Source: Epilithonimonas sp. JDS
GTDB taxonomy: Bacteria; Bacteroidota; Bacteroidia; Flavobacteriales; Weeksellaceae
Reading direction: 5' to 3'
Assembly (NCBI RefSeq): GCF_021261315.1
Contig: NZ_JAJSAX010000001.1
Span: forward strand, 992,001-1,056,000
DNA: 64,000 nt
Of this stretch, positions 1-51,963 are shown one piece after another. The notes under the pieces were generated by a model. The model saw only the letters and a program-made list of their open reading frames with translations, was not told where the DNA came from and did no database searches. A program made the position numbers and the translations under genes. Every line of letters begins with the position of its first letter. Within the stretch, counting starts at the first letter, position 1.

Positions 1-29
1 TGAATGTTTGATTTGATGACAAGAACCAT

Positions 30-105
30 AGCCCTGATTGCAACGGCATCCTTTTGTGATGAGGAACGAAGAGCAAAAGATATAGTGGAAAGCAGGTTCC
101 CGGCT
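30..105 (+). ncRNA. structured repeat element, copy A
   Basis: One of four related elements in the window (others at 20348-20430, 51863-51946 and 48441-48510). The outer stem is AGCC with GGCT, a GTTCCC bulge lies on the 3' side, and the inner stem is CTG with CAG. The two arms carry AACGG (5') and AGTGG (3'), and the apical stem is CTTTTG with CAAAAG. The spacers around the arms (5 nt on the 5' side, 4 nt on the 3' side) are the same in all copies. It lies just downstream of the TPR gene's terminator. It may belong to a flavobacterial RNA motif already in Rfam (Flavo-1 is a candidate I cannot verify). Whether it is an expressed RNA or a mobile repeat is unknown. Confidence 0.5.
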
Positions 106-20090: not shown

Positions 20091-20347
20091 TCAAAAATGT
20101 GTTTTGGTTTTTAGAATGGTCAAAAATATTAATAAAACTTCAGAAAGTCTTTAGTTTTTTATGATTGTACCACTTTTTGCTAAAAGGCTTCGACGTAGTT
20201 TATATTGAGCATTGTCGAAATGCTCAGCCTGACATCTCGAAATACAATTGTTTATTATTATAATGTCACACTGAGCGGAGTCGAAGTGCCGTGATTATTA
20301 CATCAATTTCAAATATTGACAAACCTCAAATTGCAATGGAAACCCCT
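20091..20347. other. intergenic region with dispersed palindromes
   Basis: No gene. It holds a perfect stem GAGCATT with AATGCTC (20207-20225) inside a longer imperfect inverted repeat: GGCTTCGAC on one side and ACTGAGCGGAGTCGAAGTGCC on the other are broken halves of a repeat common between flavobacterial genes (cttcgactccgctcag type). It may act as a terminator for the convergent-free space or be a mobile repeat. Confidence 0.5.
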
Positions 20348-20430
20348 AGCCCTGATGGTAGTGGAAATCCCACAGCAAGTGATGGGAAAGCCGGGCGCGA
20401 GGAATTGCAACGGACAGCAGGTTCCCGGCT
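20348..20430 (+). ncRNA. structured repeat element, copy B
   Basis: Shares with copy A the outer stem AGCC/GGCT, the 3' bulge GTTCCC and the inner stem CTG/CAG, but its arms are exchanged: AGTGG lies on the 5' side and AACGG on the 3' side. The apical hairpin is unrelated in sequence (TCCCA with TGGGA) and an extra GC-rich stretch follows it. It lies just downstream of the glycoside-hydrolase-like gene, on the opposite strand. Confidence 0.5.
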
Positions 20431-20482
20431 CCTGATATGTGGGAGAGTTTGAGGTTGGAGAGTTTGAGTGTTTAAACTATTC

Positions 20483-21565: not shown

Positions 21566-21819
21566 AATTCTGATTTACAGCTAAATTACTGGAAATGGTT
21601 GCGGGGAGTGTCCTGCGGTTTGGGGTTCAATCCTTTCGTGCTTTTGTGTTCAGAAATCCGCACATTACACTTCTACCTTTTCGCGCTCATCTATTTTCCT
21701 GCGTGTCAAGACAGGTTTCAGATTCAGCATACTATAATTTTGAGGAGCGCAAGTTCAACCTCTTCTGTCCTAGCACGGTCTCATTGGTTCTGAACTCCAA
21801 AAAAAACAAAAAGTATCTA
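21566..21819. other. non-coding stretch upstream of the glycosidase gene
   Basis: About 250 bases with no supported gene. Short open frames here have no recognisable content. The minus-strand promoter of the glycosidase gene should lie here, but no clear TANNTTTG element was found. Confidence 0.4.
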
Positions 21820-22008
21820 ATAAACAGACAGCTTTGTCTAATCACCTAACACCTTTGTCCAATCACCTAACAACTTTGTCCAATCACCTGACATCTTTGT
21901 CTAATCACCTGACATCTTTGTCTAATCACCTGACAGATTAATCTAATAGAAATACAGATTAATCTAATAAACAGACAAACTTGTCTAATAACCAGATAGA
22001 ATCTAGCT
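21820..22008. repeat. 21-bp tandem repeat array, nine units
   Basis: Units begin at 21820, 21841, 21862, 21883, 21904, 21925, 21946, 21967 and 21988, an exact 21-bp period. The core is close to ATCACCTGACATCTTTGTCTA; the outer units drift (AGACAAACTTGTCTA). Many units contain a small palindrome, GACA-N4/5-TGTC. The period equals two helical turns, so the palindromes would face the same side of the DNA. Stop codons occur in most frames, so it is not coding. Confidence 0.85.
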
Positions 22009-23099: not shown

Positions 23100-23705
23100 A
23101 TGAAAGAAGGCTATACAATCAAAGACCAGGAAAGACCACACTTTGTGACTTGCACAGTAGTGGATTGGGTAGATATTTTCACCAGAAAAGCTTATAAGGA
23201 TATTGTGATTTCTTCATTAAATTACTGTATCAGAGAAAAAGGAATGGTTTTGTACGGCTATGTCATTATGAGCAATCACATTCACTTAATAGTTCAGTCC
23301 AAGGATGGTAAGCTATCCGATTTGATCAGAGATTTTAAAAAATTCACCAGTAAAAATATTGTAGAAGCCATACAGACAGAACCTGAAAGCAGAAGGGAAT
23401 GGATGCTGGACTTATTTAAAAAAGCCACAGAAACCCACAGCAGAAATAAGAATTACCAGTTTTGGCAGTATGGAAATCACGCAGAAGAAATATACTCTTT
23501 ACATTTTATGTGGGACAAACTGAACTACATTCACCTAAATCCCATAAGAGCAGGGATTGTAGAAAAAGCGCAACACTACATATACTCTTCGGCAAGCAAT
23601 TATGTATCGGGAAAAGGATTATTAAATGTTGAATTGGCGGATAACCCAATCGTTGATGTGATGAAAAAGAATGAGTTTTGGAAATATAATAATTATGATG
23701 AGTGA
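23100..23705 (+). CDS. REP-associated tyrosine transposase (RAYT, IS200-like Y1 family)
   Basis: 201 residues. The HUH metal motif is HIH in YGYVIMSNHIHLIVQ (about 61-65), followed by LSDLIRDFKKFTSK and the catalytic helix with DKLNYIHLNPIRAGIVEKAQHY, whose tyrosine would attack single-stranded DNA. RAYTs are domesticated single-copy relatives of IS200 that act on REP palindromes. Here REP copies lie on both sides, direct on the left and inverted on the right, which gives a complete RAYT-REP unit. The gene appears intact. Confidence 0.93.
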   Translation: MKEGYTIKDQERPHFVTCTVVDWVDIFTRKAYKDIVISSLNYCIREKGMVLYGYVIMSNHIHLIVQSKDGKLSDLIRDFKKFTSKNIVEAIQTEPESRREWMLDLFKKATETHSRNKNYQFWQYGNHAEEIYSLHFMWDKLNYIHLNPIRAGIVEKAQHYIYSSASNYVSGKGLLNVELADNPIVDVMKKNEFWKYNNYDE

Positions 23706-48430: not shown

Positions 48431-48440
48431 AATGATTTGG

Positions 48441-48510
48441 GCAACTTATCCGCCTTCCACTCCCAATTGTCACTCTGAGGATCTCGAAGAGTCCGTTCAA
48501 GTCGGGTTGC
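48441..48510 (-). ncRNA. structured repeat element, copy D
   Basis: Read on the minus strand: outer stem GCAAC with GTTGC, 3' bulge ATAA, inner stem CCG with CGG, arms AACGG (5') and AGTGG (3'), apical stem ACTCT with AGAGT. Relative to copy C the arms are swapped and the outer stem differs by compensated changes. It lies between the two convergent arms of the flexirubin cluster and could act as terminator there. Confidence 0.55.
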
Positions 48511-48554
48511 GCTTCGCAGAGTTTAACGATTTCCATTAATATGACGATTTGTCG

Positions 48555-51723: not shown

Positions 51724-51862
51724 TTTTTTAGAAGTGAAATATTAGAATTAAAGTATATTCAATAAATTTATTTTCTGTTATTCTTTGGTAACTCCTAAAT
51801 TTAGATTCCTACGGAATGACAAAATTGGGTTTTAATGTGTAATGTTAATTTACGTTGAATCT
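51724..51862. other. spacer with a dispersed repeat
   Basis: Contains a 24-bp repeat (51800-51823) also present at 44300-44323. No gene or clear promoter. Confidence 0.4.
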
Positions 51863-51946
51863 GCAGCCCGACTTGAGTGGAAATCCTTTTTTGTGGCTGG
51901 AAAAGCCAAGGCAAAAAGATTGGGAACGGAAGGCGGAAATAGCTGC
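51863..51946 (+). ncRNA. structured repeat element, copy C
   Basis: Outer stem GCAGC with GCTGC, 3' bulge AAATA, inner stem CCG with CGG, arms AGTGG (5') and AACGG (3'). The apical stem is TTTTT with AAAAA plus GGCT with AGCC. Same order of parts and same spacers (ACTTG before the 5' arm, AAGG after the 3' arm) as copy D. Confidence 0.55.
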
Positions 51947-51963
51947 CATAAATATATTGAAAA

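Follow-up and report, generated by a model that had tools for sequence, protein, structure and literature searches.

Related systems

The bcr1 repeats of the Bacillus cereus group are intergenic, have a conserved secondary structure and show the characteristics of mobile elements, and the attC sites of integrons stand in cassette arrays with RYYYAAC/GTTRRRY ends. In Streptococcus pneumoniae, BOX elements are built from the modules boxA, boxB and boxC and are foldable if transcribed; in the available part of the study on them they are judged parasitic by its authors, with about half of the insertions common to all strains and slow transposition (PMC3049150). REP and BIME repeats, which occur with RAYT transposases, are 20-40 bp long and carry GTAG or CGTC tags, according to accounts available in part (PMC3733652, PMC2817692). 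Flavo-1 (Weinberg et al. 2010, PMC2864571, in the part available) is described in Rfam as an sRNA gene, with the outer AGCC/GGCT arms unpaired in the model, and a review, as excerpted, places it among the most abundant sRNA families (PMC9029176).

In contrast to the Rfam view, Flavo-1 as seen here is a high-copy element whose presence differs between related species and whose interior is exchanged as a block. Like BOX, it is a small interspersed repeat of separable modules, the likeness considered here being one of architecture; variation in BOX lies in how many boxB units stand in tandem, whereas in Flavo-1 the arms are constant and the apical hairpin is exchanged for a different one. The likeness to bcr1 is similarly one of description. 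Flavo-1 shares with REP/BIME its palindromic, intergenic and high-copy character, and its occurrence as single dispersed copies, rather than in cassette arrays, would argue against an identity with attC. The favored reading, with a probability of roughly 0.6, is that Flavo-1 is a non-autonomous, modular, dispersed repeat that works like the BOX elements of pneumococci rather than as an sRNA gene. The main rival is a functional RNA.

Flavo-1 copies in the window

Two copies in the window (the whole 64,000-nt stretch of Epilithonimonas sp. JDS DNA that was analysed), A and B, exceed the gathering score of 42 bits for RF01705, the family against which the sequence-only reading had proposed a check. 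Their membership is plain and the family is already known, since the Rfam model itself pairs both central bases of the AACGG/AGTGG loop (CM alignment). The anatomy described in that reading, comprising the AGCC/GGCT outer stem, a CTG/CAG inner stem and 3' bulge GTTCCC common to A and B, and AACGG/AGTGG arms reversed between the two, can be read directly in the sequence, from which the stem and loop positions below are taken. Four copies had been counted; the remaining two are probably the weaker ones on the plus strand at 51853-51951 and on the minus strand at 48435-48520, found with the Rfam model or with R2, a covariance model built in this analysis.

Copy A: 26..103, + strand (18-111 with flanks in model R1); 53.7 bits with the Rfam CM, 69.5 bits with R1
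Copy A, outer stem: AGCC 30-33 / GGCT 102-105, + strand
Copy A, symmetric loop, 5' side: AACGG 42-46, + strand, central AC 43-44
Copy A, symmetric loop, 3' side: AGTGG 84-88, + strand, central GT 85-86
Copy A, interior module: 38..96, + strand; five loci elsewhere match precisely 38-96 with 93-98% identity
Copy B: 20344..20428, + strand (20336-20436 with flanks); 43.5 bits with the Rfam CM
Copy B, outer stem: AGCC 20348-20351 / GGCT 20427-20430, + strand
Copy B, symmetric loop, 5' side: AGTGG 20360-20364, + strand, central GT 20361-20362
Copy B, symmetric loop, 3' side: AACGG 20409-20413, + strand, central AC 20410-20411
Copy B, second conserved internal loop, 5' side: CCCACAGC 20369..20376, + strand; the same letters open the 24-mer described below
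Copy B, second conserved internal loop, 3' side: GCGAGG 20397..20402, + strand; the same letters stand near the end of the 24-mer
Third copy, C type (GCAGCCCGACTTGAGTGG..AACGGAAGGCGGAAATAGCTGC): 51853..51951, + strand; Rfam span 51861-51943, 36.3 bits, below gathering; 66.0 bits with R2
Fourth copy, weak (AACGG..AGTGG in GCAACCCGACTTG..AAGGCGGATAAGTTGC): 48435..48520, - strand; 24.3 bits with R2, E 0.005

The 5'-arm pattern (up to three mismatches) occurs twice in the window, against 0.07 occurrences expected from shuffles. Directly 5' of copy B, at 20163-20320, lies a different palindromic repeat (GGCTTCGAC..GTCGAAATGCTCAGCC, then CACACTGAGCGGAGTCGAAGTG), pieces of which match other places in the genus.

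Copy number and distribution

The genome of the window has at least 107 Flavo-1 matches at E<=1, with 70 over gathering (150 of 1072 candidates scored), and two related genomes, G118 and G121, have 123 and 131 matches at E<=0.001, so that all three of the genomes given a fuller count exceed 100 matches. Across the family of the window, with at most 29 candidates scored per genome, at least one match is found in 130 of 148 genomes (over the cut-off in 123), which bears out the statement in the sequence-only reading that such elements are frequent in flavobacterial genomes. With the same maximum of 29 candidates scored in each, all seven genomes of genus g13 are without a Flavo-1 match. None of 14 control genomes has a match over the cut-off.

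Close copies of one Flavo-1 subtype sit at different loci. Among the matches listed, copy B has about 30 relatives elsewhere in the genus with 87-97% identity over its length, whereas the orthologous genes around it are only 74-85% identical; the plasmid and phage collections gave no match to copy B. By simple ORF calls, any overlap with an ORF is limited to 40 nt in 33 of the 37 G118 copies, which are thus intergenic; the orientation of the 37 to neighboring genes is near even (same strand as the left-hand gene in 15/37 and as the right-hand gene in 21/37). Orientation is not random in every sample, however, as among the 30 best copies of the window's own genome, 22 have an antisense gene on their right. 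By eye, a GATGACAAA(A/T)C motif recurs just 5' of long-apex copies and within their apical loops (L001-L030).

The fold across copies

When 98 copies are aligned to a model built from 38, in an alignment fitted to the structure, the combinations at the central dinucleotides are GT/AC in 42, AC/GT in 31, GC/GC in 18, AT/AT in three, TT/AA in one, GC/GT in two and AC/GC in one, and are thus fully Watson-Crick in 95. The proposal that AC and GT are complementary and that the swap between A and B keeps the pairing therefore extends well beyond the window, with further compensated copies in several complementary combinations. The purines flanking the dinucleotides (columns 25, 28, 179 and 182) are nearly invariant (A 96, G 98, A 98 and G 96 of 98), which is compatible with the symmetric A.G pairs that had been suggested, invariance being in itself no test of pairing. 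The AGCC/GGCT outer stem, present in A and B, is not universal: the 5' AGC is found in 92 of 98 copies, and 16 of those 92 lack GCT in their 3' tail.

B-type relatives carry in their apical half a 24-mer with exact occurrences in 91 stretches of the genome collection. The 80 that were fetched comprise 71 non-Bacillaceae loci (69 from Bacteroidota and two from MAGs labelled as other phyla) and nine from Bacillaceae. The 24-mer itself is absent from the window, copy B sharing its ends CCCACAGC and GCGAGG. Several different outer arms are found among the 71 non-Bacillaceae loci. One Bacteroidota variant (L147-L151 and many of L277-L355), with outer arms GCGTGAGGGATAG..AGCCCGACCC..CACGCCC, has a small additional hairpin on its 3' side and by eye is apparently a three-way junction.

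The A-RY-G loop is in register in 65 of the 71 loci, the other six being excluded from the dinucleotide count. With the 24-nt apex identical throughout, the loop is fully Watson-Crick in 54 of the 65, with eight G.U and no A.C among 130 RY pairs. This asymmetry points to strand-specific folding, which an RNA would give equally, and argues against a purely double-stranded role; in a control with seven unique tRNAs there were ten G.U and no A.C among 150 pairs. Thus, of the RNA or single-stranded DNA structure initially proposed, the single-strand fold is supported as something that matters, and RNA as such is not; the strand may be RNA or DNA.

Same-site comparison of two species

To place copies at orthologous sites, 800 kb of G118 was compared with 752 kb of G121, a largely collinear relative (long matches average 89% identity over 252 kb). 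The orthologous G121 site holds a partner for 32 of the 37 G118 copies and none for four, with one copy unmappable; one of the four (891954) was found on inspection to be shared, an insertion having concealed it. In the other direction, no G118 partner was detected for eight of the 40 G121 copies. These presence/absence differences are between species, not between strains, and as most copies are common to both species, movement is slow.

The shared pairs are mostly similar, with 25 of 32 differing at two model pairs or fewer; 685841 differs at four, two of which are alignment gaps. At six of the 32 sites (244670, 525761, 861137, 880315, 934000 and 957982), the interior has been replaced as a block, with the outer arms essentially kept at five of the six. 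Identity at 525761, 861137 and 880315 is 87-98% in both 55-column flanks and only 48-72% in the core. The case of 934000 is looser, as the change extends into the outer arms, of which only the outermost part is kept, and the 3' flank is only 38% identical.

Counted over the shared pairs, both sides of a Watson-Crick pair changed so as to give a different Watson-Crick pair in 25 cases. The six block-replaced sites account for 23; the other two are single, isolated changes at 628544 and 758077. The swap itself, from AGTGG..AACGG to AACGG..AGTGG (GT/AC to AC/GT), is found within the block at G118 861137 and 244670 relative to their G121 partners. A candidate donor is G118 628544, the interior of which is 98% identical to that of G118 244670 over 51/51 nt. 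Window copy A occupies the slot that corresponds to site 244670. This slot was followed in 21 genomes; no copy is visible in ten of these, and the remainder are as follows.

A-like interior (AACGG..AGTGG), five genomes: G000, G121, G006, G031, G109
B-like interior, four genomes: G118, G069, G083, G105
Other: G113, disrupted; G124, contig end

The swap had been put forward as compensatory evidence for structure. It is real and the fold is supported, but because the six block-replaced sites hold 23 of the 25 two-sided changes, the swap is more a record of exchange between copies than of stepwise compensation: swapped arms mostly arrive together as one block rather than being changed stepwise at the locus.

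In addition, the 15-mer CTTCGACAAGCTCAG occurs once in the 800 kb of G118 (C1:525761) and once in the 752 kb of G121 (C6, about 846900-847050), in both cases inserted into a Flavo-1 copy at an identical 3' internal-loop position.

A proposed modular dispersed repeat

Modularity is seen both in the block exchange at six of 32 shared sites and in the stretch 38-96 of copy A, which is matched alone at other loci (for example G000:C12:448083-448141). In the proposed mechanism, interiors would be exchanged between copies by recombination or gene conversion via the shared arms and loop motifs, so that swapped arms would travel together as one block. The fold would act as a single strand, either as single-stranded DNA during replication or transfer or as RNA, and the original dispersal may have been the work of an enzyme acting in trans. 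The outer arms of Flavo-1 are inverted repeats; at the empty sites inspected there was no clean target-site duplication, and no clean empty site or precise empty junction was found among them.

RNA or DNA

According to the main rival, Flavo-1 is a structured RNA (an sRNA or UTR element) present in many copies, each under selection, and the swap is ordinary compensatory evolution. This is considered unlikely. Rfam classes RF01705 as Gene; sRNA, and Table 1 of Weinberg et al. (2010) has "y" (probably) for RNA and "n" for cis-regulatory (PMC2864571, in the part available). The complementary dinucleotides of the 98-copy alignment and the predominantly Watson-Crick loops beside an identical 24-nt apex would be expected of such an RNA, and the isolated two-sided changes at 628544 and 758077 resemble classical compensation. 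Against this stand the presence/absence differences and block replacement between G118 and G121, and the near-even orientation to genes in G118. Moreover, in the available part of a transcriptome study of F. psychrophilum, Flavo-1 hits are sense or antisense and many lie outside transcribed regions (PMC9723704). The distribution also contrasts with that of 6S-Flavo, which has one match in 59 of 60 genomes, all below its cut-off.

The variable pairs of Flavo-1 contain few G.U. In alignments made with MAFFT and RNAalifold, Flavo-1 (set A1) has six G.U and three A.C among 418 cells, and 6S-Flavo, for which 29 of 30 loci were aligned (again with all matches below the family cut-off), has 31 G.U and six A.C among 377. 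The difference in G.U is significant by Fisher's test when relatedness is ignored (p 5e-6), and so few G.U at variable pairs are compatible with block exchange. The G.U:A.C ratios are 28:11 and 24:26 in sets A2 and A3, the alignments of which were fitted to the structure and hence lean towards pairing. The use of G.U versus A.C as proof of DNA was dropped, as the signals are mixed (6:3, 28:11 and 24:26, versus 8:0 in the RY pairs).

Possible host sites and candidate mobilizing genes

A further alternative to the modular repeat is a host DNA site, such as a nucleoid, replication or recombination landmark, that is held by selection and is not mobile. The 32 of 37 G118 copies common to both species would agree with this, as would a strand bias in G118, where the best two-arm split fits 50 of the 73 copies listed; this split was optimized and carries no significance test, and replication-strand bias was set aside as weak support. 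The presence/absence differences between species, the genomes without any match (7/7 of genus g13) and the roughly 30 close relatives of copy B at other places in the genus, among the matches listed, speak against it and make a host site improbable.

Least probable is a REP/REPIN-type repeat spread by the RAYT (Y1) transposases of the genome, rejected as the main driver because, although the genome has four Y1_Tnp matches (one in the window) and Flavo-1 is palindromic, intergenic and high-copy like REP, all four Y1 genes are surrounded by repeats of their own (several in L031, L032 and L034, one 50-nt inverted pair in L033), none of the 107 own-genome Flavo-1 matches is within the four Y1 loci, the Flavo-1-rich genomes G031 and G113 have no Y1_Tnp match yet at least 29 Flavo-1 each, and Flavo-1 measures about 80-120 nt compared with the 20-40 bp of REP. 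The RAYT-like Y1 transposase gene of the window (23100-23705) is accompanied by a repeat of its own, CCGCTGCGCAAAGTCTCC(C/T)GACTTTGAGCAA, with four copies upstream and one inverted copy downstream. An array of a 21-bp unit (TCTAATCACCTGACATCTTTG and variants) lies in front of the RAYT region at about 21795-22004 (L034:157-366).

In genome G024, two inverted Flavo-1-type copies within a split C-5 cytosine methylase gene have an HNH_2 gene between them, and a third copy (L152) has an HNH remnant beside it; at L268, a similar HNH gene is followed by the same Flavo-1-type element. The G024 copies are:

L143:6693-6771, - strand, Flavo-1-type copy
L143:7744-7826, + strand, Flavo-1-type copy
L152:5147-5227, - strand, Flavo-1-type copy

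There are 29 HNH matches in 25 of 148 genomes. When R2 was run on all 29 loci and the Rfam model on 13 of them, a Flavo-1-type match was found at only four: two in G024, one in G094 and, at a distance of about 1.45 kb, one in G034. The HNH nuclease was rejected as driver with only four of 29 loci carrying such a match, and since so few do, the association looks like shared cargo or location. Low-copy genomes were also rejected as a source of an autonomous element, as the genes flanked by the inverted pair of G020 look like ordinary housekeeping genes (translations, by eye). No mobilizing gene for Flavo-1 was identified among these candidates.

A shared module in Bacillaceae

The nine Bacillaceae loci with the 24-mer (from Bacillus, Mesobacillus, Lentibacillus, Neobacillus and Aquibacillus) have it within a different long palindrome, a high-copy repeat:

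L282:1048-1188 (relatives L367-L436): Bacillaceae palindromic repeat, GTTGATTGGAGCGGAAGG...CCTGGAGCGGAAATCAAC

With a query from one such locus and 40 candidates scored per genome, six genomes gave 40-60 matches each, pieces being counted separately, and no overlapping Rfam match was found in the 16 loci scanned. An alignment of 58 copies was assembled from 18 of 28 loci, omitting ten that are partial or have other outer arms, together with 40 stretches chosen for long matches. In this alignment, RNAalifold pairs the RY positions of a GGA-RY-GG loop unprompted. The R-Y pair is Watson-Crick in 52 of 58 copies and the Y-R pair in 40 of 58 (association p 0.007 and 0.002, ignoring relatedness); the combinations include GC/GC (29), GT/AC (five) and AC/GT (two), and 36 of 58 are fully complementary. 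RY complementarity is clearly weaker than in Flavo-1. Literature searches with letter-strings from these repeats gave no relevant paper among those listed, and keyword searches gave none. Bhal-1, described in the available part of its source as a repeat of B. halodurans (PMC2267715), could be the same repeat.

A more tentative proposal is that Flavo-1 and the Bacillaceae repeat form one superfamily of folded mobile elements in two phyla. The building blocks of such elements would be interchangeable loop modules, namely the symmetric A-RY-GGA loop, in which RY is complementary, the CCCRCAG/CGAGGA loop and the GAGGAACGA apex. The elements would be recognized as single strands by conserved machinery and would evolve by copying of modules between copies. 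This is possible, although doubtful as a whole.

Implications

If Flavo-1 is a modular dispersed repeat, its abundance counts as an sRNA family need revision. If this is true, the practice of taking covariation to prove that a multicopy element functions as RNA would also need revision, because block exchange between copies can mimic compensatory mutation. The part that would surprise a specialist is the occurrence of modules across phyla: the 24-nt module common to Flavo-1 and to a Bacillaceae repeat unmatched in Rfam in the loci scanned, together with the similar RY loop, would offer a handle on the machinery behind such repeats.
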